Shown here piece by piece: positions 3,653 to 36,900 of a stretch of 64,000 bases of DNA. The position numbers and the translations under genes are program-made. Every line of letters begins with the position of its first letter. Positions within the stretch are counted from its first letter, which is position 1. The notes beneath the pieces are model-generated. The model did no database searches and was not told where the DNA came from. It was given only the letters and a program-made list of their open reading frames with translations. Origin of the DNA: Agelas oroides (taxonomy: Eukaryota > Porifera > Demospongiae > Agelasida > Agelasidae); NCBI GenBank assembly GCA_949130485.1, contig OX422196.1, forward strand, positions 7,049,054 to 7,113,053, in the 5' to 3' direction.

Positions 3653-4289
3653 TTAACAGTTACTGTGTGCTATACTGCATTTGCTTTAACATGCACTGTA
3701 TTTCTCATTGTCATGTTATACCTGTGGCAAATTACCGTTGAGTTGAGGGTACAGTGAAGATGATGTGATGGACGAGATTGTTTGCAAATGGCTGCAAGAT
3801 GCATGCATGAGCAGTAACTATAGTGTGTTAGCCTTGCTCCTTAGCCTTCCCACCGTCCAGTTTTTGATCACTTGCAGTTTTACTAAGACAAAGTCTACCA
3901 CCATAGCCTCATTCAAAGCCTCTCCCCTGCGCTGCCAAACCTTTCTCATCAGGGAGCAGGGCTGAGCCTTGTACCAAGGCTGCTGGTATTATATATTTCA
4001 ATTTATTTTTAAGTCCCTACGCATGGCTTAGCCAGCCTGGTTAGACTTACTGGACTACAAAAAATATACACACAAAATATATAAAGCAATGAACAACCCG
4101 AAGTCTTCCCAGTCCTCCCGTGTAGTCTACTGTAGACGACCACAGCCTGGTTCATGCGGCGGAAGACTGGGAACGAGACTATCAAGTCTGCGTTCCGTGT
4201 GGAGGTAGCCTCGTTCCCAGGCCGTTCCCGCCTCCAGTTTTTGATCGCCAGTGTACTAATGTGGAGGAGGAGCCAGACTATCTATCACA
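3653..4289. other. Intergenic, degraded repeat fragments
   Basis: No gene seen. It contains decayed pieces of hairpin elements: CCGTCCAGTTTTTGATCACTT near 3853 (the same motif recurs at about 4226, 53990 and 58962), and TAGCCTCGTTCCCAGGCC at 4208. From about 4265, GAGCCAGACTATC..CACACGAAAAGCG is a stump of the TAGTCTCG-type element seen whole at 12105. Confidence 0.5.
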
Positions 4290-4747
4290 CGAAAAGCGCA
4301 GAGGAGGTAGTGCAAGTATACGGATTTTGTATATGTTAGGGTATCCAACCTGAAATATGAAAGTGTGCGCATTGATTCCAAAACAGTGGTTTTTATAAGA
4401 GCTAACCCAGGTAAGAAAAAACCCACAGAAGGATCGGGTTCGAATGTCAATTTATTCGGAAACACTGCACTTTTCCGGAAGTGGTAAGTCCCGCAAAATG
4501 GTACGTGACCAATATCAAGCCATGGGCCTAGTTATCTCCCAAAAAACTTACCCTTACAGACCTAATGTATAACTCACAGCCATGTTTAAAGTAGCCTCGC
4601 TGGCAGTGGTCAGTGGTCTAGGAACGAAGAAATTTTACCGGTTACGGCGAACTTAAATTTTTGGTCACGTGCCATTTTTCGGAATTTACCACTTCCGGAA
4701 AAATGCACCGATCCCAAAAGAAATGACATGCGAACCCAATCCGTCTG

Positions 4748-5100
4748 TAGTCTCGTCCCCAGACCTAATTTTTCGCGCGCGCCCTGCGGACTCGTCGAAA
4801 AATAGGGTCTGGACACTTTCACTATGAAAACTGGGGCATGTTTACATACGGCGGTCAGTAAATTATCACATTATCAGCTACCAGCAGCGTTTGCTTTGGC
4901 GCCAAAAAATTTGCAAGCTGGCTATTTGTGATGACGCATAACGCAATTTACTTTACCTGAGCAATCTGATTGGTGCGACAACATGCCAATACGCTTGTAT
5001 GATTACGCCCCAGTTTTACCAGTGAACGTGTCCAGACCCTATTTTTCGACAAGGCCGCAGGGCGCGCGCGCGAAAAATTTGGTGTCTGGGGACGAGACTA
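4748..5100. mobile_element. 353-bp MITE with 9-bp TSD
   Basis: Ends TAGTCTCGTCCCCAGAC and GTCTGGGGACGAGACTA, with inverted arms of about 95 bp that include a GCGCGCGC tract. Perfect 9-bp TSD ATCCGTCTG (4739-4747, 5101-5109). A one-armed relative lies at 53647-53730. Confidence 0.9.
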
Positions 5101-5147
5101 ATCCGTCTGTGGTTTCTTTCTTACCTGGGTTGGCTCTTATGAAAATC

Positions 5148-5540
5148 TAGCCTCGTTCCCAGGCTCTCCCGGAACGCGAGTTGTACACGCGTGGAGAGCC
5201 TGGTATCTATTCTACGTAGCATGACGTAATCGAAATAGGACTAAAACAGAAAGGCAACGTTTTGCGCGTTTTTCAACCAACTGTGCGTTCAACGCTCGGT
5301 GTGTATGATATTCAACCCCCGATAACTAGATACATGTAGTAAGTTGGCCGCTACCTTCACTCTTTTTCCTGTTCTGAGTCTCGGGTACGCCCACGCTCAA
5401 TTAAGTTCTCCCTACCGTACCCGTACGTGCCCCCCCTCTCTACCTTTGAGGGTTCTCACGTGAGAATAAATACCAGGCTCTCTCCGCGTGTACAACTTCA
5501 ATATCGCGTTCCGGAGCGGAGGAGCCTGGGAACGAGGCTA
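5148..5540. mobile_element. 393-bp MITE with 9-bp TSD (copy A)
   Basis: Ends TAGCCTCGTTCCCAGGCTC and GAGCCTGGGAACGAGGCTA. TSD ATGAAAATC/ATGAAAACC (one mismatch). A second, inversely oriented copy of the same internal sequence is at 58996-59371, so this is a true repeat family and not a chance hairpin. Confidence 0.9.
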
Positions 5541-5961
5541 ATGAAAACCACTGTTTTGGAACCAATGCGCACACTTTCGTATTTCAGGTTGGACACCCTA
5601 TATACGTACATTACATCTTCCGGTGATATCCGTTATGATAATCGGAGTTATGCGGTTGTCGGAGCTGTACCAGACGGCAGATTTCGACACCATCTGTTTC
5701 AAGCTGTGTTCATGCGAACGACCTATCCTTCAAGATATGTGTATTTCAGGTGGTAAAGGGTCCACACAGCTGTCGAGACCGCTGCTACTGCTCCCGTCGG
5801 TATGTGAGAACGCTGTAAAAGCCGGGTCCAGTTTCAAGCCTCTGAAATTGGTGAGATTCAAGCGCCCGTAGCGCATGAACGCAGGGTGCTATCAAGACCG
5901 GACTTGCACCAGATTAAAGATCTGTTTCTGTGCTTTCTGAAAATCCTCACATGATGGGGGT

Positions 5962-6812
5962 GACATCCCCATTAGATTTGGAGCTATAAGCCCACGAAGT
6001 TAACCATGTTTTGTGGTTTTGGTGCGCATGGGTAAATTTGTCCAATCGTATCTCCTGAACCCTACCACCTATGGACATGAGACTTGAACCGTTGGATGCA
6101 GCAAAGATTGAAGTTTATAAGGGTATGTAAAAGTATTGTGACATCTGTCGTAATTATCAGTGACTAATTGAACAATTTACCCTTATCATTGTTGTGCTAT
6201 TATATGCCAGACAATTGCAGCAGACATTCTAGAACTTTCTCTTGTATTCCATGACTATATAAACCAGTTGTACTATTCTTCAAGTGAATCAGAATTGAAT
6301 GGCAACGATTATGACAACATCCACATCAGATATGGAGCTGTGAGCCCGTGAAATAAACCATTTTTCATGATTTTGATGCACACGGGTAAATGTGTGTGAC
6401 TGTATCTCTTGAACCCTTCCCTCTACAGACACGAAACTTGTACCATTGTATACAGCAAAGATTGAGGTTTATAAAGACTTGTTCAAGCATAGTGACATCC
6501 CCATCGCAATTGGAGCTGTGAGTCCTTGAAGTAAACCATGTTTCATGGTTCTGTACGCATTGGTAATTTTGTGTGACCATATCTCTTGAACCCTACAACT
6601 TAAAGACATGGAACTTGTACCGTAGGACACAGTAAGGATTGGCAGTTATAAGGATGTGTTGAAGTATCGTGACATCCACATTAGATTTGGAACTGCGAGC
6701 CCATGTTTTGGTTTTGGTACGTACGCATTAGTAATTCTGTGTGACCATATCTCCCGAACCCTACAAACTGTGGACATGGAACTTGTACTGTTGGACACAG
6801 CAAGGACATGCA
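5962..6812. repeat. Subterminal tandem repeats of foldback arm
   Basis: Four diverged units of about 175 bp, starting near 5962, 6316, 6490 and 6668. Each reads GTGACATCC..AGATTTGGAGCTGTGAGCCC, then TAAACCATGTTTCATGG, then an ATCTCTTGAACCCT block and a GACATGGAACTTGTACC block. The first three are mirrored in the right arm (7926-8600). Reading frames crossing them appear identically in both arms and are not genes. Confidence 0.75.
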
Positions 6813-7623
6813 AAAGACTTGGCATGAACCCTAGGGAGGTGTACATTATGCCGGCATCATAATTAGTAGCCTTGAGCAAACTAGCATTATTCTTAAAACC
6901 CGGAGCATAATACGTAAAATTTAGAGCATAATAAAATGATTTTACGAAGAGGCTACACGTGCTCTTGCAAAGTCATTAGTCATTAGTTGCTGACTTGACT
7001 ACGAGAGTTCCACCTCAGCCAACGGCAAATCCAGTGATCAACAGCTTGCATCTATGTCCACGGAGTCTGAGTTTTGCAGCAGTTTGTCACTTAGTCACGC
7101 AAGCCACACCTGCAAAATGTGTGGCTTGTGTGACTATTCGTTGCTATGACCAACGATATTCAGATGTCTGTATCTTGCACAATTCTATTGTATATTGAAG
7201 AAAGACCAATATTTCGTGAGCATAATTTCAGTACTCTTTTAGGCATAATAAGCTAAAAATTGAGGAATTGCGGAATAGCATAATTAGACAATTTTGAGCA
7301 TAGTGTACATGTGCTTAATGAGCCCAAACACTTAGGATTGTACATTTCTGAACATTTAAACTGAATGTTTACTGGAACACTTTAAACGAGATAGGTACAT
7401 GCTCAAGGCTAGTGATACACTGACTTTGGCTGACCCATCTGTCACCTGACATACATTTACGTCAGCATACAAGCCTGTAATACATATCAAACATCACGGT
7501 ACTTTAAGCAAGAAACATCAATCTCTCATTGTGTATTACTACACTATTGAAATGCAATAGCTATCAATTTTGTTCTGACTGGAACTGAACAATGTTTGGT
7601 GATTATTATGCATTCTTGGTTTC

Positions 7624-7808
7624 TATGATTGGACTAAGCGCAATAAAGGAATTTAGATATTATGAGGCAAAAATAGAGGAAAGTGAAACGAGTTGGGAGT
7701 CGAACTGTCTGGCTGTCGTGGCTCAGTAGTAGAGCACTGGCAGCCCAAGCTAGAGGTGACCTGGGTTCGGCTAAATTCCTTTATTGTGCTTGGTCTTTGC
7801 TGCGTCCA
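7624..7808 (+). repeat. tRNA-like (SINE-like) segment within an inverted repeat
   Basis: 7706-7766 reads GTCGTGGCTCAGTAGTAGAGC, a box A match. It continues with a possible 5-bp anticodon stem (CTGGC/GCTAG, loop AGCCCAA) and GACCTGGGTTCG, a box B-like block. The T arm does not close and position 33 is not U, so it is not a functional tRNA. It resembles a tRNA-derived SINE head. It sits between inverted copies of GCAATAAAGGAATTTAG (7630s and 7772), inside the foldback loop. Confidence 0.45.
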
Positions 7809-8999
7809 ATCATAATAAAATGCGCTCTTGTAGAAACATATTAGCTTATTAGAGTGTTCCTGAAAACAAATGCAATTCAGTGTATTGAATGCATGAATGT
7901 TCAGAGGCATACTACAAATACAAATTGCTTGCTGTGTCCTATGGTACAAGTTCCATGTCTTTAAGTTGTAGGGTTCAAGAGATATGGTCACACAAAATTA
8001 CCAATGCGTACAGAACCATGAAACATGGTTTACTTCAAGGACTCACAGCTCCAATTGCGATGGGGATGTCACTATGCTTGAACAAGTCTTTATAAACCTC
8101 AATCTTTGCTGTATACAATGGTACAAGTTTCGTGTCTGTAGAGGGAAGGGTTCAAGAGATACAGTCACACACATTTACCCGTGTGCATCAAAATCATGAA
8201 AAATGGTTTATTTCACGGGCTCACAGCTCCATATCTGATGTGGATGTTGTCATAATCGTTGCCATTCAATTCTGATTCACTTGAAGAATAGTACAACTGG
8301 TTTATATAGTCATGGAATACAAGAGAAAGTTCTAGAATGTCTGCTGCAATTGTCTGGCATATAATAGCACAACAATGATAAGGGTAAATTGTTCAATTAG
8401 TCACTGATAATTACGACAGATGTCACAATACTTTTACATACCCTTATAAACTTCAATCTTTGCTGCATCCAACGGTTCAAGTCTCATGTCCATAGGTGGT
8501 AGGGTTCAGGAGATACGATTGGACAAATTTACCCATGCGCACCAAAACCACAAAACATGGTTAACTTCGTGGGCTTATAGCTCCAAATCTAATGGGGATG
8601 TCACCCCCATCATGTGAGGATTTTCAGAAAGCACAGAAACAGATCTTTAATCTGGTGCAAGTCCGGTCTTGATAGCACCCTGCGTTCATGCGCTACGGGC
8701 GCTTGAATCTCACCAATTTCAGAGGCTTGAAGCTGGACCCGGCTTTTACAGCGTTCTCACATACCGACGGGAGCAGTAGCAGCGGTCTCGACAGCTGTGT
8801 GGACCCTTTACCACCTGAAATACACATATCTTGAAGGATAGGTCGTTCGCATGAACACAGCTTGAAACAGATGGTGCCGAAATCTGCCGTCTGGCACAGC
8901 TCTTTCGTTGCACGACAACCGCATAACTCCGATTATCATAACGGATATCACCGGAAGATGTAATGTACGTATACAAAATCCGTATACTTGCACTACCTC

Positions 9000-10142
9000 T
9001 AGCCTCGTTCCCAGGCCTTCGCGCGTTCGTCGCTTGCAGTACGAAATAATTCGCTCAGAAGGCCTGGTCCATTTCATCACGTGATGTGTGCCGCAGCTTA
9101 CGTCACGACCATTCTACTGGAATCAATGATGTCATAGATGAGCTAGAGCCCAGTTTAGCGTTGAAAGAGGCCCCCAGAGATCACAGTAATGGTTCGTGTA
9201 CGAACTTACCTAAGTGCTAAAAGTCTCGGCAGCGAAAGAGCACAAGCTGCCATGTAGTAGACGTCTATATTCAGATACCTTGGCCACATCGTGTTGCTAG
9301 GTCGAACCTGGATTTCGACTCCTCGTCTTCTTCAGCTCGAGTTTACTATTGTAGTCTATCGTACGCGCGTGACCTGTTTCAGGTTCTTCCAACTCCATTT
9401 GTGGTTATCTCTACAACCAATGCTGCAACACGGCGCGGCCATATCTTTATTTTATTTTTTTTTTTTTTTATGGGAACCAAACTGTCATACAAGTGCCATG
9501 ATATACAATACGAGGAAGGACTTGTTAGGGTTAAGAATATATATATATATAAAACAAGAGAGGAAAAAACTGCAGAAGCAATATAGTTTATTAGGGCAGG
9601 TGAAAACTGTTCAACAGGTGGATGTGAGGCTGGCTTCCACCCTCACCAGATCCACTGGCGGGGCTCTGACAGGAAAGCCTGAGTGTGAGCGGGCTCCCCG
9701 GATGCATCTGATTGAGGATCTCAAGAGTGAGAAGGTGAGACGGCACCTCAGCCAGGCCATCGTGGAGCTGTACGAGTTGTCCCACTTTGAAGCGAGGAGT
9801 GATGCAAGCCTCTTGTAGAATGTCTTGGCCTCGTTTCCGAGTCCTCCTGTCGCTGAGAAGATCAAAGGCGTGAAGGAAGCATGCTCAATATCTCTAATTC
9901 TTTGCTCATAGGAATTCTTCTTCAGCCTTTCGTGTCTCCTGTAGCATGAGGCGAGGTTGCTGTTTCTGTTGGAGGGAGCATGAGGGTTGAAGACCCTCAC
10001 GTCACAGACCCTCGCGGCCATATCTGGTGTGACGTAAAATTACGGCTGCGGCACACATCACGTGATGAAATGGACCAGGCCTTCTGAGCGAATTATTTCG
10101 TACTGCAAGCGACGAACGCGCGAAGGCCTGGGAACGAGGCTA
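9000..10142. mobile_element. 1.14-kb MITE with 9-bp TSD, interrupted by a LINE
   Basis: Ends TAGCCTCGTTCCCAGGCC and GGCCTGGGAACGAGGCTA, arms of about 85 bp (including GCGCGTTCGTCGCTTGCAG), perfect TSD CACTACCTC (8991-8999, 10143-10151). It lies inside the right arm of the foldback element. Removing the retrotransposon insert leaves about 560 bp. A shorter relative is at 29096-29355. Confidence 0.92.
9447..10012 (-). pseudogene. 5'-truncated non-LTR retrotransposon, ORF C-terminus
   Basis: On the minus strand a reading frame (10021-9611) gives VRVFNPHAPSNR..CYRRHERLKK.SYEQRIRDIEHASFTPLIFSATGG..FYKRLASLL..KW..WLRCRLTFSLLRSSI.CIRGARS. I recognise this as the conserved tail of reverse-transcriptase ORFs common in marine invertebrate genomes. 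It is followed by an AT-rich 3' region and an A-rich tail (T run at 9447-9470 on +). A 13-bp TSD CGCGGCCATATCT flanks it (9434-9446, 10013-10025). Truncation at the 5' end, the A tail and a TSD longer than 10 bp are what target-primed reverse transcription leaves. Dead on arrival: no RT catalytic core. Confidence 0.85.
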
Positions 10143-10175
10143 CACTACCTCCTCTGCGAAAAGCGGGAGAGAGTC

Positions 10176-10786
10176 TAGTCTCGTGCCCAGACCCCACCCC
10201 TCACGAGGAGGAAAAGGGGTCTGGTTACAATACGACATCCCGCCCGACCCTTGAGGGGCGTAACCAAATGCCATAAGTCATAAATTGTAAGTGACAGCGT
10301 GGGAAAATTGCTGGTGAGAAGCGTGAGAAACGGTTGTACCATAGATAATATATTAATGGAAGGTAGCACGCCTTTTTGCATGCTGTGAGGAATACCTCTG
10401 CCGCTATCGTCCAAGCGAGGAACCGTTTACTTCAGTTGAAGCGAACAAGGAAGCTGCTCACGTTTGTCGCTGCGACGCTAAGTGACCGTGATGGCAACCG
10501 ATTTCGTACTAGTCTTCGAACTGCTTCACCTATCGTCTTGTTGATGGTCATCTCAGTAAAGGACGCGTTGAGTCTTGGCATGCGCAAAACGGCAAAAGCG
10601 CCATCATCATTTTGTAAACCGCACAATTTCTCTGACACGTGGAGCTTCGAGTAATTATTACTCTAGCTGTGCTGTGATTGGTCATTTCACATGCCAGACG
10701 GCTACGTCATTGGGTCGAGCGGGATGTCGTATTGTAACCAGACCCCTTTTCCTCCTCGTGAGGGGTGGGGTCTGGGCACGAGACTA
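10176..10786. mobile_element. 611-bp MITE with 9-bp TSD
   Basis: Ends TAGTCTCGTGCCCAGACCCC and GGGGTCTGGGCACGAGACTA, inverted arms over 70 bp, perfect TSD GAGAGAGTC (10167-10175, 10787-10795). It inserted one base beyond the right TSD of the large foldback, into the same host element. Confidence 0.92.
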
Positions 10787-11639
10787 GAGAGAGTCTGGAC
10801 ACTCGCATATCGGGGGGGGGGGGGGGGTCGGACAAGATCACGTGCAGGAATTTTTGCTGATGTTGCATTTATTGGCACACTAGCGTGACTGCATTGCGCA
10901 CGTGCGTGTGTATGCTTGCTTGCTTGCTTGTTTGCTTGCGGCCATATACCGTAAATTTTAAATGAGCGTATTTAAATATTTCACGAAGACTGAACGTCCT
11001 TCGTGCACAGCCTACTGTCGGTACCGCGGTGAAGGGCCACAGCCAGAGCCCAGCGTCGGCGTGCAAGAAACCCGGAGCGAAGACGGCTCAAGTTAGCGCA
11101 CGTATGGCAACTGCGGACCATGACAGACAAGGGCTGCCCACAGACGGTACAAATTACGGCAGTAGTTGAGTTCGGGCCATGCATAATCGATACTCATAAG
11201 CGCCAGAAATTCAGCTCATAACTTCAGTGTGAAGTTTAGTCCAAGTGTGTGTGTAGCGGTAGTAGCTTCTTTAACCGGAGATGTATGATCATCTATATCT
11301 GGTGAGAACTATAGCTACTGCTTGGCTACATGAAGTTTTGCTTACCACGCCCATGGAACAGCAGACATGCAGTGACGAATCCTGCTGTTATAACAGTGCA
11401 TGGTTTGTGTGCCATGACAAACCATTAAATCAGCAATGCATTGCTCGCTCAGGCTCGCCCCACGATCATGCATGAATCATCTTACTAGTTTCACATTGGC
11501 GTTTGCATAGAGAAAAGAAACACGTAGTCGCATCAAATAGTTGTGTATTTCGAACTGTTTCGAAGTTGTGTGCGAAGTACAAGCTATAGACTTATACTGG
11601 TAGAAATTTTACTGCGCCCGGGCGTTATCATGACTAGTG
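10787..11639. other. Intergenic, no gene seen
   Basis: Begins with the host-element remnant GAGAGAGTCTGGACACTCGCATAT and a G homopolymer (10812-10827). A TTGC microsatellite follows (10915-10940). The rest holds no convincing exon, RNA gene or hairpin. Confidence 0.4.
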
Positions 11640-11807
11640 GGACTGGTGCGAGGAAGAGACTGGGGGATCAACAACCAGCTCTTCTGGAAGTTTAAGCAGC
11701 AGCATCAAGCGACTGGGTGATAGTAGCAGCGTTGAAGCTACTGAAGGAATCCCATCGACCCCTCCAGAACTTGTCTCGTGTACCGATTTTGACAACTTGT
11801 CTTCAGC
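11640..11807 (+). CDS. Possible Ser-rich exon, unassigned
   Basis: Open between an AG at 11639 and a GTACGT donor-like site at 11808. The translation is rich in Ser/Thr with GGSTTSSSGSLSSSIKRLGD and an acidic TPPELVSCTDFDNL stretch. I do not recognise it. It could be one exon of an unannotated gene, a decayed gene fragment, or chance. The sequence following it (11917-12060) is also Ser-rich in one frame but broken by stops. Confidence 0.22.
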
Positions 11808-11815
11808 TGTACGTG

Positions 11816-11916
11816 TAGCCTCGAACCCAGGCTTTCCGTCCCGGATTTTGTCTTGCAGCTTGGAGATTCAGAGCCGCGAGGCAAAAATCAGGATGGAAAG
11901 CCTGGGTTCGAGGCTA
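11816..11916. mobile_element. 101-bp hairpin MITE with 9-bp TSD
   Basis: TAGCCTCGAACCCAGGCTTTCC and its inverse, 40-bp arms, TSD CTGTACGTG/CTGTAGGTG with one mismatch. Confidence 0.85.
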
Positions 11917-12104
11917 CTGTAGGTGGTCTCATGCTTACCAAGTCTAGGCCTGGACCAAAGAAGGGGTTACTGGCAAAAGGCTGGAAGGCAACACACCATC
12001 ATCTCGTTCATCGTCTAGTCTGAATACGAGCCATACAGCGGGCGCGAAGACTTGGGGGTAAAATACGCAGTAGCTGCCAACCCCAAGTCGCTCGTGTACT
12101 ACTA

Positions 12105-12719
12105 TAGTCTCGCGGAGCCAGACTCTCACACGAAAAGCGGAGAGAGTCTGGTGACACTCGCATATTGAGTTGGTGCTAATAGGCCACGGAATTTCTTAGT
12201 CTCGCGTGGCCACACCCATTTCCGCAAGAGAGGGAAGTCTGGTAACCTTCGTTGCAGCCGCTCGTAGCACAGGAATTTCATTTACTCGCATTGCGTAAGC
12301 GCTAAGGCCGCATAATTATCTCGGGAAGACTGACGAAGCAGCTGTTTGTGGTTTCACAGTTGATTTACACCTTGTAATTTCCTATTGAAGTTGTAATAAC
12401 AGCACTCATGTGACCGAATACTGCGCTGTGATTGGAACGCACTCCACAGTGCGGGGCAACAAACTGCTGTAACAGAAGTTACCAGACCCCTTCCCTCTCT
12501 TGCGGAAAGGGGTGTGGCCACGCGAGACTAGGAATTTCTGTGGGCGATAATTGACCATAAGTAGGTTAGAGCGGCAACGTGGTCTGGCTTCAATGTCACT
12601 TCCATGACTTCCCTGTCAATCGCACACTTGACGCGCTGACAGTGCAACACCAACTCAATATGCGAGTGTCACCAGACTCTCTCCCGCTATTCGTGTGAGA
12701 GTCTGGCTCCGCGAGACTA
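12105..12719. mobile_element. 615-bp composite MITE with 9-bp TSD
   Basis: Ends TAGTCTCGCGGAGCCAGACTC and its inverse. Arms run through CACTCGCATATTGAGTTGGTG. Perfect TSD GTACTACTA (12096-12104, 12720-12728). It carries a second, complete MITE inside (12197-12530). Confidence 0.92.
12197..12530. mobile_element. 334-bp MITE nested in the composite
   Basis: Ends TAGTCTCGCGTGGCCACACC and its inverse, perfect TSD GGAATTTCT (12188-12196, 12531-12539). Confidence 0.92.
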
Positions 12720-12832
12720 GTACTACTAAGTACACGTATTCGCGATCAATTGGAATTTCAAGAATGTAAAATTAAATCACGTGCAATTCGAACCTTGTCC
12801 GATCCCCGGCCCCGGCCCTAGCCCTGCTCGCA

Positions 12833-13416
12833 TATTGAGTTGGTGTTGCACTGTCAGCAAGTCAGTAGTTAATTAAGTAGGTGCGAACAAGTGTGCGATT
12901 GACAGGGAAGTCATGGAAGTGACATTGAAACCAGACCCGTTGCCGCTCTAACCTACTTATGGTCAATTATCGCCCACAGAAATTCCTAGTCTCGCGTGGC
13001 CACACCCCGTTCCGCAAGAGAGGGAAGGGGTCTGGTAACTTCTGTTACAGCAGTTTGTTGCCTCGCACTGTGGAGTGCGTTCCAATCACAGCGCAGTATT
13101 CGGTCACATGAGTGCTGTTATCACAACTTCAATAGGAAATTACAAGGTGTAAATCAACTGTGAAACCACAAGCAGCTGCTTCGTCAGTCTTCTTGAGATA
13201 ATTATGCGGCCTTAGCGCTTACGCAATGCGAGTAAATGAAATTCCTGTGCTACGAGCGGCTGCAACGAAGGTTACCAGACCCCTTCCCTCTCTTGCGGAA
13301 CGGGGTGTGGCCACGCGAGACTAAGAAATTCCGTGGCCTATTAGCACCAACTCAATATGGGAGTGTCACCAGACTCTCTCCCGCAATTCGTGTGAGAGTC
13401 TGGCTCCGCGAGACTA
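12833..13416. mobile_element. Inverted, truncated copy of the composite MITE
   Basis: From CTCGCATATTGAGTTGGTG to the terminal GGCTCCGCGAGACTA this is the reverse complement of 12105-12719, including the nested element. The outer left terminus (about 47 bp) is missing and is replaced by unrelated GC-rich sequence, so the copy arose by segmental duplication or aborted transposition. Confidence 0.85.
12987..13323. mobile_element. 337-bp nested MITE, second copy
   Basis: Same element as 12197-12530 in the same host position but inverted context. TSD AGAAATTCC (12978-12986, 13324-13332) is the complement of the first copy's TSD. This shows that the composite was duplicated as a unit after the nested insertion. 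Confidence 0.9.
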
Positions 13417-14525
13417 GTGGAGGAGTGGCTACCTCGTCACTCTACTACAGCAAATGGACGGCACCGCCGACAAAAGCGACTGGAGTGGTGAACAGCATGG
13501 GTATTATATATGGCGCACCTACGTGTAAGGTAAGTATTGATCAGCTATGTAGAATATTTGAGACTTGGAAACGCTCCTGCCCTCACCAAGTCGCCATTGA
13601 ATACAGATAACTACCCCTCTGCCGTGCGTGTGTGTGTGTAGAGCTGGTATAAAGCTCACTCTTTGCATCGCTAGGAAGCGCAAAGCGTAGTGTGTTGTGA
13701 ACCCTGATACAACCAGCGCAACATAGCTTCATTCAGCAGTTACTGAAGATTGTTATACTTTTGCGTGATGCAAAGTTCTGCAAACCGCTGTACAGGGGTA
13801 ATGTTGTAGTGGCTTGATGCATAGATAGTAAATAATTAAAGAAGAGCGTTCTGACATAATGGTGAGATTATGTGATCATTTTGTGACCTAGTATGCAGAT
13901 AATTTTGACCAGTGGAACTCTCAAATTTTGCAGACCATTCTGATAAAAAAAAGACCTTACACAAACATTTGGAATAGAATGTTAACAGCAATAATGTGAA
14001 ACAGTGCAAGCAAAGGGGAAAGAAAACTTTGTACAGTTTTTCAGGAGCACCTCGGTTGTGGCTTTACTCATCATCACTCACGAGTGCCTACTGTCGAATG
14101 ACATCAAGCCTTTAATTATGGCAAGTATGTTTCATGTTACACCCTAATTATATGTATGCATTCTATTGCACGTACTTACTAGATGATTTAAATTTTGAGG
14201 GGTTATTCATGATCACGTGAGTACTATTTCTGCGAGCACTATTGCTTGCCGCCGCGTTGTAAGGAGATGGGTGGTGTTTCAAGCTCCATTACTGGTAATT
14301 TAGCTCCTGTGTGGATGTATATTGGCACTATTAGGTATACAGAGCTAATGCATACTAAATTAAGGAGTGCCTATAATTCAGTTTTCAGGACTCAGCAAGG
14401 ATAGGAATTTACTTAGCAAGTCGATAGTTAGTCAGAGTAGCTTGATCAAACTTCTCAGAGCTTGTTCCTAAACTTGTGTCTGCAAACTCCAAGATAGCCT
14501 CCATAAAGACTTTTACAACTTGTAA
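13417..14525. other. Intergenic, no gene assigned
   Basis: A short open stretch before a GTAAGT at 13530 could be an exon but matches nothing I know. The remainder is AT-rich with no hairpin elements and presumably includes the promoter of the gene starting at 14526. Confidence 0.35.
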
Positions 14526-27946: not shown

Positions 27947-30900
27947 TCAGAAAGGTTGATCCTTAATGAAACGCTCAAACATGGCAAATGCTTGCTCTGG
28001 GCGAAACTGAGGTACCTGTGGATGAACGATCAAGAAGGAGTTACCAGATACACTTTTATGAAGAGACAGAACCTTCGTACCATGTGTCCAGACCCTTTCA
28101 CAGTGACAAATTTGAACCCGTTGACATCGTACTCTGTCACATACCCAGCAACCTATTGTAGTAGGAAATACACCAGCAACCTTACTATAGTCACATGATG
28201 CTAGTCACACAATCTTACTATAGTCACATGATGCTAGCCACACAACCTTACTATAGTCACATGATGCTAGTCACACATATGTGGCAGTCCCTGTAGAAAT
28301 CGAAGGTTATTCCGTTGCGTATTTCGATCGCATTGCTGTGTTTGAAGCACCGTATTCCGTTAGGGCTCATACGTGCTTCGTAGATGCTAATCAATCTACG
28401 AAGTGCATATGAGCCCTGTCCTTAATGGAAGTTCAGCGATATGGCGCTTCGAAGGCAGCGATGCGACCGAAATACGTGGCGGAATAACCTTCGATTTCTA
28501 CACGGGACTGCCACATATGTATCCTACTCTCGTCCTCAGACCCCACCCTCTCACAAGGAGAAACGATCTGGTGAATCAAGTCGAATTTCTTGGGCTAGTG
28601 CACGCTTTTACAACAGTGTCACCTAGAAATTTGCAGCAAATCTGCTCAAAAAAGGTACAGATACTCGAATGGAGGTGAACAAATTTTACTGTTGTAAGGG
28701 AAGTGCTATGTAATAATTACCGATCTCGCAATCTCATTGGTCCTTACCACTTTTTGGGAATAAGCCCAAGAAATTCGACTTCGTTCACCAGACCATTTCT
28801 CGCCAGAAGGCGCACAAGGGCTGGGCACGAGGCTATATGTATCCTAGCACATTATATATGTACCTGATTATTCACAGTCCACGGTCTCCAGCCATCCATT
28901 ACTTTAAACCCAAGACCAGAAGTCCATTGCTGGAATCATGATAAATACAATGTGAGACTGACATTGAAACCATGTTTCCCTTTGCCTTACCTCATTGCCA
29001 TTGTATGGCACACACCCATCCACATCACCATTGTAGATGAGAGTACGATAGGTTTGGCTAAATAAAGGAAATAGTGCACCGGAGTTAGCCTCGTTCCCAG
29101 GCCTTCGCGCATTCGTCGCTTGCAGTATGAAATAATTTGCTCAGAAGGCCTGGTCCATTTCATCACGTGATGCATGCTGCAGACATAGTTTTACATCACA
29201 CCCAGCATACAGCGGTATAGCAAATATCGCCATGTTGCCATGTTGCAGAGATAACCACAAATGGAGTTGAAAGAACCTGAAACAGGTCACGCGCGTACAA
29301 TAGAATTATTTCGTACTGCAAGCAACGAACGCGCGAAGGCCTGGGAACGAGGTTATATCAGAGTATGCTAACTCACATATTAAAGAATGCAGAGAGAGAG
29401 GAAGGGAGCTTGATTTAACTTACATCAGTGTGGGGTAGAGGGGCAACAGTGAAGTAGTATCTTCATTGTAGCGAATCTTGTTTGTACAGATCCTCCATCC
29501 TCCAATCTTCTCAACAGATGCAACATGAATAGCCTCACGGACCTGCAGTGGACAGTAACTTGAAGTGCTGTATATAACAAACCACATTATAACTCAGTTA
29601 ACACAAACCTCTAGTTAACACAAACCTCAGTTAACACAAACCTCAGTTAACACAAACCTCAGTTAACACAAACCTCAGTTAACACAAACCCCAGTTAACA
29701 CAAACCTCAGTTAACACAAACCTCAGTTAACACAAACCTCAGTTAACACAAACCTCTGAGTTGTTAAAGTACTTGCTCTCCACATGGTCATCAATGCATT
29801 CATCTGGGCCAAAATAGTCTGTGGCCTTTGAAAGCACCACTAGCTCTTTCACTGGGTTTCTACAAGAGGAAGAAGATGGGAACATTGACGACAGCTCCTA
29901 AACTGACTTATTGTTCTAAGGCGAAATATACCTGGCACGAAAGACAGTCCCCTCGGCTCCAGGTGGGAGGTTGTTGAAGCAAGGTGTGTAGATGTCATAG
30001 ATGTTCACTTTGCCAATCTCCTTGGACATCTCATTTATTAGATCTGCACACTGTTCACTATGTTGATGACAAATACAGGCATGCTCTAGCCTTGTTCCCA
30101 GGCCTCCCTCATTTTCCTTCTGTTTGCATTCACAATAATACACGGGAGCGGAAGACCGGTGAAAAATGGAGAAGGCCCGGGAGCATTCATCACGTGAGTG
30201 GACGCGAGGTGGACGTGGGGGAGGGAGGGGCCGATACACAAACTTGAAAGTGAGTTTCTTACCAGTCAAGACAAGTAGTTTCGATCACGCTAACGTATGG
30301 AATCCCCGGTCTTCACCAGTCGTGTATTATTGTGAACACAAACGGGGGAGGCCTGAGAATGAGGCTAGGCATTGTAACGATTGCCACTAAACTACTCACT
30401 TCCAGTCACTCTCACAGTCATGAACTCAAACTCAACAAGCACTGATAAATAACCACGAGGCGATCACATGATGACAAAATCATAACCGATGACGTAATGG
30501 TGAATAATACAATAGATGCATGATACTGTTACATCTTTCCTTTTACGGAAACACAACACAATTTCCAGTTTAGAGAGTCCAGAATAGAGAGTTCTGTTCA
30601 ACCATCGTCTGCATGTTTGCTGAACCAGTCCGGCTTTTTCCGAATTCGACTTGACCGACGTGGTTCAACTGGTGAAGTTGGGACTTTCGGGTTTTCCTCA
30701 ATCTGGGTAGGGGTGGTTTCCAACGTGTCACCTTGAGTGGTCTCTGGAGTGGTCTCAAATGATCTGGGGCCCGTTGGAGTGGCCGGGATGTGAGGGAGAG
30801 GTGGTGATTCGTTTGTTTGAATCAGTTGACGTCGGTTGCGACGGTATTCTTGATCGCCCACTTTAACTTTGTAGCTACGGGGCCCACTTTGGCCTGTGCA

Positions 30901-33900
30901 GACGCCAGGGGTCCATGTCTTCTCTCCTGGAAGCTGCATCCGCACTGTTTCTCCTGCACTCAGTGGGGGAAGTGGTTTTACCTGTCGATTGTAATAGAAC
31001 TTTTGCTTGTCTTTCAAGCTGTTCAGAGCTTGTTTGTCTTCAGAGGTTTCAAAACGGGGCTGTAACAGTGCTGTGTTGGTAGGCAGGAGTGTCTTGCATC
31101 GGCGCCCCAAGAACCTCTGTGCTGGGCTTGTGCTCATGCCCTCTGTTGGTGTGTTACGCCAATCTAGAAGTGCTCTGATCTCTGACTGGCCTGATTCTGC
31201 GCACTTGGTGAAGAGTCTCTTTACAGTCTTGACAGCATTTTCTGCCTTGCCATTGGACTGTGGATAGCGTGGAGAAGATGTAATATGCTCAAAACCCCAA
31301 CGTGTGGCAAATCTGCAGAATTCCTCAGAACTGAACTGTGGTCCATTGTCTGACACTAAAGTGTCTGGTGCACCATATCGTGCGAACATAATCATCAGGG
31401 CCTTAGTAATGCCGAGGGTGTTAGGCTTGCTAATATTCTCTACCTCGATATAGTTGCTATAATAGTCACTCACCACAAGCAGTGTGCGGCCCCTCAGCTC
31501 ACAGAGGTCAGCACCCACCTTCGACCATGGCCTTGCTGCAAACTCATGTTGTTGAATTGGCTCCTTGCTTTGGTGAGGTCGGTGAGCCATGCAGACATCA
31601 CACTTCGAGACATAGTCTTTCAGTTGTGTGGACATGCGAGGCCAGTACATGATGTCACGGGCACGTCGTAGGCACCCTTCTGTGCCAATGTGTGTTGAGT
31701 GCACGAGCTCTATCATCTCCTTCCTGAGTGTGTTAGGGATCACAATCAATGGTCCCTTGAAAACCAGTGAGTCTTGGACTGTGAGTTCGTCTCGAACATC
31801 ATAGTATGCAACCACACTCTCGCTTACTTGAGACTTATGTTCAGGCCATCCTGCCTGAATTGTTGCTCGGAGCTCTGTCAAGACCAGGTCGTCTGCTGAT
31901 GCCTGCTTGACTCTTTCCAATTGATCTGGAGGGATGGCAAGTAGCGCCGTGTGGTCAGTCTCTTCCAGCAGGTGTGTGAATGCACAGGTGTTGACCGCTG
32001 GTAGGTGTGCCCGGCTGAGAGTGTCTGCCAGGTACATCTCACTGCCTTTCTTGTATGTGAACTTGAGGCTGTACTTCTGGAGCCTTAGCAGCATTCTCTG
32101 CAATCGACTCGGTGCCTTGTACAGGGGCTTAGCAACAATGGATACCAGTGGCTGGTGATCGGTCTCTACATGCGCACACTCCCTCCCATAGACATAGGCT
32201 TCGAAATGGTCACAGGCAAACACAATGGCTAGTAGCTCCTTTTCTATTTGTGCATACCTGGTTTCTGTGGGTGTTAGGGCCCTGGATGCGTAGGCTACTG
32301 GTTGCCCTCCTTGTAGTAGAGCAGCACCGAGTCCAGACTGGGAGGCATCACACTGGAGGGTCACTTCCTCCTTCAGGTTGTAGTACCTCAGGACAGGGGT
32401 CTTGGAGACTGCTTCCTTGAGCTTCTCCAAGGCGGCTTGCTGGGGGTGATCCCAGGTCCACAGACTATCTTGGTGGGTGAGCTCTCTCAGTGGCTTAGTG
32501 AGGTCAGCGAGGTGGGGCAGGAACTTGCTCAGGTACTGTGCCAATCCTAGGAGGCGTTGCACTCCAGCCACATCTGTGGGTGGTGGCATCTCTTGAATTG
32601 CCTGAACCTTGTGGGGGTCCACTCGTAAGCCTTCTGCTGTTGCCACATGACCAATGAAGGGGACTTCTGTCTGTCGGAACTTGAGCTTTTCCTCGTTCAG
32701 CTTGAGATTCCTTTCCTCGCATCTCCTGAGGAAAGCACTCAGGTGGGCATCATGGGTTTTGCTCGCTTCCTCCTGTGACTCGCCAAACCCCACAACCACA
32801 AAGTCATCTGCCACAACTTCGACACCTTCTAGATCCTCCACGAGCTCGTGCATTCTCCGTTGGAATACTTCCGGAGCAGAGTTGATACCAAAGGGCATCC
32901 TCTTCCAGCGATACCTCCCAAAGGGGGTGTTGAAGGTGGTGAGCAGAGAAGACTCTTCATCGAGGGCAATGTGCCAGAACCCATGGCGTACATCGAGAGT
33001 TGTGAACAGCTTTGCTCCATGTAGGCGTGTTGCGATTTCCTCAATGGTGGGCAATGGGTAGTGCTCCCGCTGTATCGCTTTGTTGAGATCTTGTGGGTCG
33101 AGACACAAGCGTAAGTGGCCGTTTTTCTTGGGTAGAGCAACCAGTGAGCTGATCCAAGGAGTAGGTTGTGTTACGGGAGCGATGATGTCCTGTAGCACTA
33201 GCTCTTCCAGGGTAGACCGCAACTGCTCTCTGATAGCAACTGGGACACGTCGTGGTGCATGCTGTACAGGATCAACTCCGGTGTTGATTCTAATGTGGTA
33301 GTCGCCATCCAATAGTCCCACTCCATCTCCAAACACTAGTGGGTACCTCTGGATGACATCCTCCCTGGTCAGTGGAGCTTGCTTGCTGTCAACAGCATAG
33401 ATGTGGGCGTTTCCTGCAGGTGGTTTGTTCAGGTTGTCGTTGTCAAGGTAGGTCACTATCTTCATGCCGAGGCAGGCTTTCCTCCCAAGTATGGGCCGGA
33501 TGTCGTCCTGATTGACCAGCATGCAGTCCAACCTGCAGCGGTAGTCTCCTCGCCATACTCTGAGGAGTGTGGTCCCACAAACTGGAATCGTGGTGCCGCC
33601 ATATGCTGTGATCCTCTGCTGTGTTGGTGTCACATTCTTTAGGAGGTGGTCTTTGGTGGCCTTCTTGTACAGACTCAGGGGAACAACATTACACTGAGCC
33701 CCTGTGTCGACTTGGAATCGTAAGTAGTTTCCACTTTCGAGTTTGAGAGTGATCAGTTGGGTATCATCGAGGTTACCCGCAGGTCCTGTTTGAAACACCT
33801 CATCCCTGTCCTCGTCAGTTGCTACTGCCTTGACCGACCGCTGGCTGCGGCACTTTGCTGCAAAGTGGTTCCTCTTGCTGCACTTATTGCATGTCTTTCC

Positions 33901-36900
33901 TAGGGCAGGGCAGGCCTCTTTCTTGTGTTCATGTCTGTAGCCGCAGTTCCAACATTCTCGGTAGGTTGATTTCTCTCTCTCGGAAGACTTGGCCTGCTCC
34001 CTTCCCGGTTTGACTGCATGAATTGATGTGTTTGAATTCTCTTCCAAAACTTTCATCTGTAGTGACATGCTTTCGGCAGCTCGACAAATCTCATCTGTCT
34101 TGGCCAGTGTGAGGGCTGACTCTCGCAGTAGCCTTTCTCGGACTTTGCTGTCGCTAATGCCAAACACCAGGCGGTCTCTCAGAATCTCATCAGGCGTTAT
34201 TGCCTGGAAGTTGCAGTTCTCTCCTAGTTTCCTCAGGGTGGTTCGGTACTGATCGTATGTTTCTCCAGGCTGTTGTGATCGGCAGTTGAATCGGTACCTT
34301 TCGAAGGGGGTGCTTTTCCGCGGTTGGCAATACTCTTCGAACTTTGCTAACACAGGGTCTATTCTAGCATCGTCGCCGTCTGCTGCCCATCCCGTGAACG
34401 TGAAGAACACTTCTCGGGCCTCTTCCCCAATGACTGTGAGTAATGTGGCTACCTGCACTGCCTCATCTTTGCCTTTGAGTTCGGTTGCCAGTGCATAGCT
34501 AGTCCAGGCTCTCTTAAACTTTTTCCACTTCTCTGCTACTTGTGGATCGTGAATCTCTAACGGCTGTGGCGGTGGTAGTAGGTAGTTGCTAGTAGCCATC
34601 TCGGCTCTTCCTTGTCCGACGCTTTGTACTTGTAAACCTGCTCTCGTAGACTGTCTAATGGCTAGGGCCTATCCCACCGCTGCCACCATGTAACGATTGC
34701 CACTAAACTACTCACTTCCAGTCACTCTCACAGTCATGAACTCAAACTCAACAAGCACTGATAAATAACCACGAGGCGATCACATGATGACAAAATCATA
34801 ACCGATGACGTAATGGTGAATAATACAATAGATGCATGATACTGTTACAGGCATGTTCCTTACAAATGTTGCATAAAAGCAAAATTTCATTCTTGGGTTA
34901 CTTGCACCCCATATGTAGCTTTAGTTTACCCTGGAATCATGATAAATACTATGTGAGACTGACATGCTCTAAACGTAGGTAGTCACTTTCTAATGTCGCA
35001 GTGATACCTGGGTTTGGTTTTGAAGTCATCACAGGTCTGCACTATCTGATCATACAGAGCCTATAAAGAGATAAATTGAAAGGTCGTATCATGAAAGAAG
35101 TTTGAGGGTTTTATGCTTACAGTCGAACCCTGCTTAATGGACACCCCTCAACAGCGGACACCCACGATATAACGGACAATTTCAAAAGTCCCGACTGTCC
35201 CTCCATTCACTTCAATACTTAAAGCAAACCCTGAATAGCGGACACCCCGCTACTCTGTATAATGGACAGTTTTCGTGCTCCCAACTGTACGCAAACAATA
35301 CTTAACGCCGATTTAGTGGACGCTCGTCAAAATTTTCAGCAAGATTGTCTGCCATCGCTGCTGGAGTTAACAACTTGACATTATTTAGATTAGCGCTGTT
35401 ACTCGTAGTACTAGCCTCTGCTTAGCCTTCCCACCAGCGTACAGCAAGGAAAAGCTCTGAAAAGACAGCCACGTTGTGCTCAACACCCCGATTACGCATA
35501 CCATGCCTACCTGAAATACACCCCTGAATTAGGGAGACCTTGCTATAAGGGACAAAAGGTTGGTCCCCAATGGTGTCTGCTATAGAGAGGTTCCACTGTA
35601 AATGTCTGAAGAGCCACTAATCTGTCTGTGTCATCCAGGTATATAAACTTACCTGACATTTTTTACATTTCGATGTATGCCTGCAAGAGCGCTTGATGAT
35701 GTCATTATTAGAAAATAATGTCATCATGCGCTCTTGCTACCTTCTACAGGATATGTACCAACCCAGGCATGATACTCAATTATCTGGCTAGGTAATGTAC
35801 ATTTTCAGGGTAAGTACCTGGGTATTTTTCCATTAAATTTGTGTAATTTCATCTTATTCTAGAACTCCCTTATCCAGATTCTTAACTGGAAGTGACTTCT
35901 TACATCAGAAAAGAGTCCATGTCCGTGATAGAAGTCCACGTGAATCTTGAGTCCTGTCTCGTGTCCACATGCTCCTACCTGATTTCCTATACATCCATTG
36001 CCAACCTAGAAGATAAGGCACATGAGTTAGTGCTGTTTTGGTAAAATGGTTTATGTTTTTAGTTAGTTAAAACAACTGTTACAACTACAACGTTCTGGAT
36101 TATGTTTACTGACAATAATAATGAAATTCCTGGTGGGTGATGGACTGATAAATTGTTTTGAGTATTTACCAAAACCTCCCTGCTATTATGCATGAATAGA
36201 CACAACTTTCCTCTTTATTAACTACAAACAACATCCTAACTAAATAAGACACTGAAGATACAGTTGCTGATAGCTGTGAATAAGGGTCGCTTTAGCCATA
36301 AACTATGCTGCACTTTGTTTCACTTCAACAAAATGGGTTTGTAGGTTATGTAGAAAGAGGATCACTTTGATCAAAGCAGTTACAGTATTTACCTAGCTTA
36401 TGTCCACATAGATGGCTAAATCATTGAATTATGCTGGACATTACCAGCGTATTGCATCTGGCAAGTGTGTTCTAAGTTGAAAGTTTGCTGGACGTCATCT
36501 GGCAAATGTGTTCTTAGGTTGAGAGTTTGCTGGACATTCTACATTCACAGGGGCACTTTGCTTTTAATGTCTTATTTAGTTAGGATGTTGTTTACACTGT
36601 ATTGGCTTGTTACCATGAAGCCTTTCAAGTTGATGTGGGTGGCAGTGGCCTGCTGGTTCATCAATCTGATTGTGTTCACAAGTGTTGGCACATAGATGCC
36701 TGCATACGACTCACCACTATAATGGGAAGAAGAAAGGTCTAAGAGTATTAGCACTAGCTGAAGCAACTTGTTAATGAAAGTCCAAGCTTGCTTATCTCTG
36801 TTATAGGAAGCTTTCATAACTGAAGACATGCACTTTGGCAAGTGGGTTTAGTAAGAGGATGTGGGTTTAGATACCCTACCAGACAGGATGTTAGCACTGT

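Follow-up and report, generated by a model that had tools for sequence, protein, structure and literature searches.

The nest and its empty sites

The window, a stretch of 64,000 nucleotides from the sponge Agelas oroides (C14:7049054-7113053 of a 259-Mb genome in 141 contigs), contains near its left end a nest of nine transposable elements. These are a host miniature inverted-repeat transposable element (MITE), a foldback transposon with two long inverted arms, a solo long terminal repeat (LTR) that is present once in each of these arms, a hairpin element, four further MITEs (MITE1 to MITE4) and a poly-A retroposon. Their borders and target-site duplications (TSDs) are as follows, in coordinates of the window:

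4299-10156, no strand: foldback element, ends CAGAGGAGGTAGTG; TSD CGAAAAGCG, exact, at 4290-4298 and 10157-10165
5608-6636, plus strand: left foldback arm, the part inner to the hairpin insertion (outer piece at 4299-4336)
7928-8999, minus strand: right foldback arm
6637-7927, no strand: foldback centre, present whole or in part in most sister loci
6146-6316, minus strand: solo LTR copy of the left arm; TSD GATGT (minus-strand reading)
8248-8418, plus strand: solo LTR copy of the right arm; TSD GATGT; 171 bp identical to the left-arm copy
4337-5600, no strand: hairpin element, ends TAGGGTRTCCAACC; 7-bp TSD TATAYGT with one mismatch
4748-5100, no strand: MITE1 in the hairpin element, TAGTCTCG ends; TSD ATCCGTCTG, exact
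5148-5540, no strand: MITE2 in the hairpin element, TAGCCTCG ends; TSD ATGAAAAYC with one mismatch
9000-10142, no strand: MITE3, TAGCCTCG ends; TSD CACTACCTC, exact; 5 bp (CTCTG) inside the right end of the foldback
9447-10012, minus strand: poly-A retroposon in MITE3; 13-bp TSD CGCGGCCATATCT, exact
10176-10786, no strand: MITE4 in the host stump, TAGTCTCG ends; TSD GAGAGAGTC, exact; one base from the foldback TSD
4269-4298, plus strand: left stump of the host MITE (TAGTCTCGCGG family), ending with the foldback TSD CGAAAAGCG (4290-4298)
10787-10810, plus strand: right stump of the host MITE, from its terminal repeat, with no other host sequence recognised beside it

For comparison, pairs of 9-mers drawn at random from the window agreed in 11 of 200,000 draws. 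The original prediction had described a nest with precise junctions, and its borders were right to within a few bases, apart from the right host stump, when checked directly; each named junction was also set against insert-free copies. The nest is up to four levels deep (host, foldback, hairpin element, MITE), as had been proposed, and the proposed insertion order stands up, with the exception that the relative order of inserts in different arms is not readable. The foldback with its exact 9-bp duplication, MITE1 and MITE2 inside the hairpin element, MITE3 in the right arm and MITE4 at one base from the foldback border were all found as predicted. The hairpin element itself is present, with its borders moved from 4333-5605 to 4337-5600 and with a 7-bp TSD that had been missed. 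Overlooked altogether was the solo LTR mirrored in both foldback arms.

The search for empty sites that the prediction had named as a check was run and returned insert-free copies for the named inserts. Family searches were confined to the window's own genome, and empty-site comparisons, sister loci and family counts all refer to copies in the assembly. Seven copies of the hairpin element fetched from elsewhere were all 500-501 bp long and unbroken at the MITE1 and MITE2 sites, with an exact adjacent 7-bp TSD in six of the seven. The window element measures 500 bp once its two MITEs are removed, and it is 97-98% identical to all seven copies (97% on the other strand for the copy at locus L008). 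Copies of MITE3 elsewhere matched the retroposon-free sequence from end to end, the top copy at 99%. The sites of the hairpin element and of MITE3 were intact in sister foldbacks, with 49 and 48 pattern matches, respectively, at 27 loci (both strands searched; up to three and two substitutions allowed, respectively).

The 25-base end of the foldback matched the genome at 68 forward and 74 reverse places (up to two mismatches), against 0 for its reversed control. Both ends were found in 20 of the 27 fetched sister loci; the 9-bp TSD was exact in 16 of these 20 and had one mismatch in another, so that the same ends recur at many loci with a duplication of constant length, as in a mobile foldback transposon. 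The inverted arms are long (approximately 1 kb) and contain 177-bp internal tandem repeats. When the hairpin element, MITE3 and both LTRs were removed with one TSD copy each, the window foldback came to 3083 bp. Six of the 20 two-ended sisters were 3078-3094 bp long and nine were 3000-3150 bp long, within a range of 2195-3960 bp, and their longest stop-to-stop frames were 86-259 amino acids. The foldback is a non-coding element that makes 9-bp duplications and presumably moves by cut and paste.

Probable copying between the foldback arms

Each arm of the window foldback contains the same 171-bp sequence in mirrored orientation, identical in both arms, beginning and ending TGTCAT...ACGACA and with GATGT next to either end in each arm. 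This sequence was absent from 27 of 27 fetched sister loci, and the seven sisters inspected at this place had the uninterrupted site on both strands. Its 15 genome matches consisted of the two window copies, five same-strand pairs and three others, two of them fragments. The members of a pair lie approximately 3-5.5 kb apart (two pairs have a partial member), and the two pairs whose ends were fetched are flanked by 5-bp TSDs, GGAAC and ACATG. Such paired relatives have the layout of an LTR retrotransposon; together with the TG...CA ends and the 5-bp TSD, this identifies the 171-bp sequence as a solo LTR, and its mirrored presence makes it probable that the LTR was already in one arm when that arm was copied onto the other. 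Over 1036 aligned bases the two arms differ by five substitutions, all transitions, of which two lie at the arm's inner edge, and by 11 gap columns. As the hairpin element and MITE3 are each found in a single arm, they most likely arrived after the last copying across those places. Most simply, these unmirrored inserts are later than the arm copying.

The proposed course of events starts with an LTR retrotransposon landing in one foldback arm, where it would have been reduced to a solo LTR. The arm with this scar would then have been copied onto the opposite arm, either by gene conversion or by break repair with the opposite arm as template, probably around the time of transposition, and the hairpin element and MITE3 would have arrived later, without being mirrored.

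Arm copying was also examined across the family. In a tree of full outer arms, which included 18 of 28 copies (the window copy among them; ten were dropped because they had no full pair), the two arms of one copy were sisters in 17 of the 18. A wider test on whole and partial arms covered 23 of the 28 copies. In it, the mean arm difference was 0.0114 within copies and 0.0400 between copies, with same-side and opposite-side comparisons alike, and 0 of 2000 shuffled arm pairings gave a value as low as that observed within copies. Minority bases present in exactly two arms were in both arms of one copy in 63 of 76 cases, where approximately 2% would be expected by chance and a control with mispaired arms gave a mean of 0.25, and 18 of the 23 copies had at least one such mirrored private base. 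Inverted identity also extended 43-249 bp into the centre at loci L030, L031, L032, L037 and L047, as expected from copying tracts that overshoot the arm, and the data suggest the same for L048 and L055. The two TSD copies differed at 1 of 153 positions in 17 sisters, a count that omits the sisters without a TSD; this is close to the median arm difference of 0.0074. This would fit copying near transposition, with numbers too small for proof. From these sequence comparisons we consider it very probable that the foldback arms are not independent and that one arm acts as a template for rewriting the other, the LTR-bearing arm having been copied and the later inserts having stayed unmirrored.

A number of observations weigh against this reading. 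With whole and partial arms, the result of the arm tree became weaker: in only 12 of 23 copies did the two arms differ less from one another than from the most similar same-side arm found in another copy, with one copy equal and ten farther, although the mirrored-base and shuffle tests stayed strong. Hence, copying has not always been more recent than the split from a sister. The window copy falls just among the ten farther copies (0.0059 vs 0.0057) and has one mirrored and three one-sided private bases. Loci L052 and L047 supply 26 of the 63 mirrored bases, another 100 private bases are found in one arm only, and the arms of L048 have strongly diverged. Moreover, the sisters were chosen by their likeness to the right arm of the window copy, and three of the 20 two-ended sisters have no 9-bp TSD at the named ends. 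Either arm may have been the donor, and the LTR may have entered at this site or in a parent copy.

Alternatively, the foldbacks could have been born as palindromes, if synthesis primed by folding back at a break had made an inverted duplication out of an LTR-bearing one-armed precursor, with no conversion afterwards. We consider this unlikely, if worth weighing. For other systems, excerpts of the literature describe priming by fold-back at breaks, and an 8.5-kb element on contig C6 (see below) resembles a one-armed precursor, one of its ends matching a sister foldback over approximately 1040 bp (all that was fetched) and the other over approximately 311 bp. However, most sisters have the same two-armed plan and the same centre, which repeated births would each time have to reproduce, and the borders of the arms gather at a single position, with extensions in some cases only. 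Locus L029, whose centre is 98.5% identical to that of the window copy, comes near to an LTR-free two-armed relative, a form with which such a birth would be at odds.

It is highly improbable that the palindrome or parts of the nest are artefacts of assembly, even though long-read fold-back artefacts exist (PMC12870357, in excerpt). The arms differ by their five substitutions, 11 gap columns and different inserts, the TSDs of the inserts are exact or have one mismatch, and sister copies elsewhere share the plan, mostly with 9-bp TSDs. That the LTR entered both arms independently, at one and the same base pair, can be dismissed: LTR elements may have target preferences, but all 171 bp and the GATGT junctions agree between the two copies, both would have had to become solo, and two pairs of relatives sit in other targets (GGAAC and ACATG).

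In the literature surveyed, the identity of foldback arms has so far been explained from arm structure. In the mirrored solo LTR, which has a target duplication of its own and was found in a single copy only, arm copying has a marker that can be dated. The rate of copying and the length of its tracts could be measured on the many copies of the family.

The C6 element, the superfamily question and known foldbacks

On contig C6, foldback ends at 4490637 and 4499139 enclose 8.5 kb and are flanked by an exact 9-bp TSD, ATTTCCACG. A slice from the middle of this C6 element contains an open frame of 357 amino acids that runs off the slice and matches the TNP-like RNase H N-terminal domain PF21787 (2.8e-19), which, from the domain's name, we take to be a P-element-type transposase domain. 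Pfam gave no match to a THAP domain in the 357 amino acids of this partly seen gene, and a PDB search with the transposase fragment returned no match. The transposase had 115 matches in the genome, the next best being 84% identical with six stops, and the C6 gene is the only one of the 115 that has listed foldback ends on both sides (100 of the 142 ends listed). A match of 41% identity at C4:4058752 and a fragment at C4:4059827 lie 1.4 and 2.4 kb outside another foldback end. The left part of the C6 element (L078, C6:4490580-4491700) also has a second open frame, of at least 164 amino acids, on the other strand.

The P-type gene may be the coding parent of the foldback or a nested passenger in it. 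The sequence read covers half of the C6 element, and a 3.1-kb foldback with a 5.4-kb passenger would come to the same length. An evenly balanced possibility is that the foldback is moved by a transposase of the Mutator type (Mutator-like element, MULE), with the P-type gene as a nested passenger. MULE TSDs are given as 8-11 bp (PMC6446971, in excerpt), a range that the 9-bp TSD of the foldback fits. Furthermore, PF10551 has 119 matches in the genome, a standard 3.1-kb foldback with a 5.4-kb insert would equally account for the 8.5 kb, and, judged by strand, the second P-type match close to a listed foldback end (C4:4058752, 41% identity, with the fragment at 4059827) lies outside that end. On the other hand, 0 of the 119 PF10551 matches lie within 10 kb of the 100 listed foldback ends (of 142), the nearest being 17 kb away, and the P-type gene is found between ends with an exact 9-bp TSD. 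More tentatively, the C6 element could be a P-type coding parent that makes 9-bp duplications, whose long end was copied over the short one to give rise to the foldbacks, with arm copying continuing in them. TSDs in the P superfamily are 7-8 bp long, and the P element has 8 bp (PMC7776569, in excerpt), compared with the 9 bp seen in the window copy, the C6 element and 17 of 20 sisters.

If the P-type gene belongs to the family, it would be unsafe to assign foldbacks to a superfamily by duplication length alone. Should the C6 element be the coding parent, a 9-bp duplication would no longer mark a foldback as Mutator, and insertions could be dated by the divergence between arms in the way that LTR divergence is used.

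Elements of this kind are already known, and there is nothing unusual in a nest of transposons by itself; the features of interest are the LTR mirrored in both arms and the arm copying throughout the family. Galileo, a member of the P superfamily in Drosophila, likewise has terminal inverted repeats that are 0.5-1.2 kb long and contain tandem repeats (PMC3573991, PMC4168063, PMC3688188), arms lengthened by recruiting inner sequence (PMC3573991) and fragments of other transposons in both arms of copies (PMC4168063), and conversion or break repair has been proposed for its arms (PMC3573991, in excerpt). Its TSD, however, is 7 bp, rarely 8, at the target consensus GTANTAC (PMC4168063, in excerpt), whereas the foldback described here makes 9-bp duplications at varied targets and its membership in the P superfamily is unproven. 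A further difference is that both arms here contain, in mirrored orientation, an entire solo LTR together with its TSD, and that 23 copies were used to test for arm copying. Our searches of the literature gave no report that we recognised of a mirrored solo LTR in a foldback; transposon fragments in both arms are on record for Galileo.

Tetris of Drosophila virilis is similar in being a foldback without conserved coding frames and with TSDs of 8-10 bp, and its arms have tandem repeats of approximately 220 bp, compared with 177 bp here (PMC4079207, in excerpt). According to the same excerpt, its authors did not find its transposase and argued from TSD size towards Mutator, whereas here the sole transposase gene seen inside a pair of foldback ends is of the P type. 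The excerpt speaks of homogenisation for the tandem repeats; here the arms were tested. Tm1 of root-knot nematodes has foldback-like composite arms, mostly 9-bp TSDs and, inside one copy, a nested element with a 7-bp TSD (PMC3169594, in excerpt). It differs in that its arms consist of 13-15 bp repeats with a mean arm identity of 93.15%, and the paper's title calls it Mutator/Foldback (PMC3169594, in excerpt).

Host MITE, retroposon and neighbouring sequence

From the flanking sequence, the host site into which the foldback and MITE4 had inserted was reconstructed as a 112-base query. Bases 55-109, which span both insertion sites, were covered by 38 of the 42 listed matches (37 at 88% and one at 89% identity), some of which are the two ends of one element. 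With a longer query, a separate repeat at approximately 10876-11040 filled most of the 40 scored places; the shorter query found the host family. Copies of the TAGTCTCGCGG family were present at five fetched places, and their terminal repeat holds CGAAAAGCG and GAGAGAGTC unbroken. Three of them (L072, L074 and L075) are 295-307 bp long with 9-bp TSDs, and the other two (L073 and L076) are without a TSD. By these sequence matches, the host is confirmed as a TAGTCTCGCGG-type MITE. Its remnant in the window amounts to approximately 55 bp (4269-4298, 10166 and 10787-10810), and neither its other end beside the stumps nor its own TSD was seen there. The element is thus real and has remnants on both sides, as originally proposed, but the proposed extension over 10811-10830 found no support and the right stump ends near 10810.

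MITEs with TAGYCTCG ends share these ends, 9-bp TSDs and many copies, and genome copies were found for MITE3, MITE4 and the host family. All eight TAGYCTCG elements of the 64-kb window cluster in 4748-13323, including a small one at 11816-11916, when searched for with exact 8-base ends, a length of 100-3000 bp and a 9-bp TSD with up to two mismatches. Adjoining the host stump, 4215-4255 is part of another TAGCCTCG-type element, which has a 98% match with an inverted partner at C11:1685982-1686072. A second nest occupies 12105-13416. It starts with a better preserved copy of the host MITE (12105-12719, TSD GTACTACTA) that holds a 334-bp MITE (12197-12530, TSD GGAATTTCT). Approximately 107 bp beyond 12719 follows a second copy of this composite, inverted and truncated at its end, which reaches 13416, has its inner MITE at 12987-13323 and is 92.6% identical. 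The composite at 12105-12719 was rejected as a mobile unit, the whole composite being found in the window only, among 40 scored of 680 candidates.

The retroposon in MITE3 has a T-run at 9447-9469 and a 13-bp TSD, that is, the poly-A tail and long TSD of a non-LTR retrotransposon. It had been predicted as a truncated long interspersed nuclear element (LINE); the poly-A insert with its exact duplication is there, whereas both 'LINE' and 'truncated' are unproven, and Pfam gave no match for its 142-amino-acid minus-strand frame, the one frame tried. Six other genome copies match it at 100% (rounded) over 533-538 bp, and the 20 best matches, the window copy apart, all end at query base 539, 4 bases before the end of the query and the TSD. 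Judged from its copies, the retroposon is of a very young family, and possibly a short element instead of a truncated LINE.

On inspection by eye, part of the foldback centre had looked tRNA-like; this was discarded, as neither ARAGORN (on the window) nor Rfam (on 3900-13500) gave a match. To the right of the nest, the window encodes ordinary eukaryotic gene domains (F-box, kinase with Kelch repeats and inositol phosphatase). At 30598-34668 it also contains an open frame of 1356 amino acids with reverse transcriptase, RNase H and integrase domains, a retroelement polyprotein.

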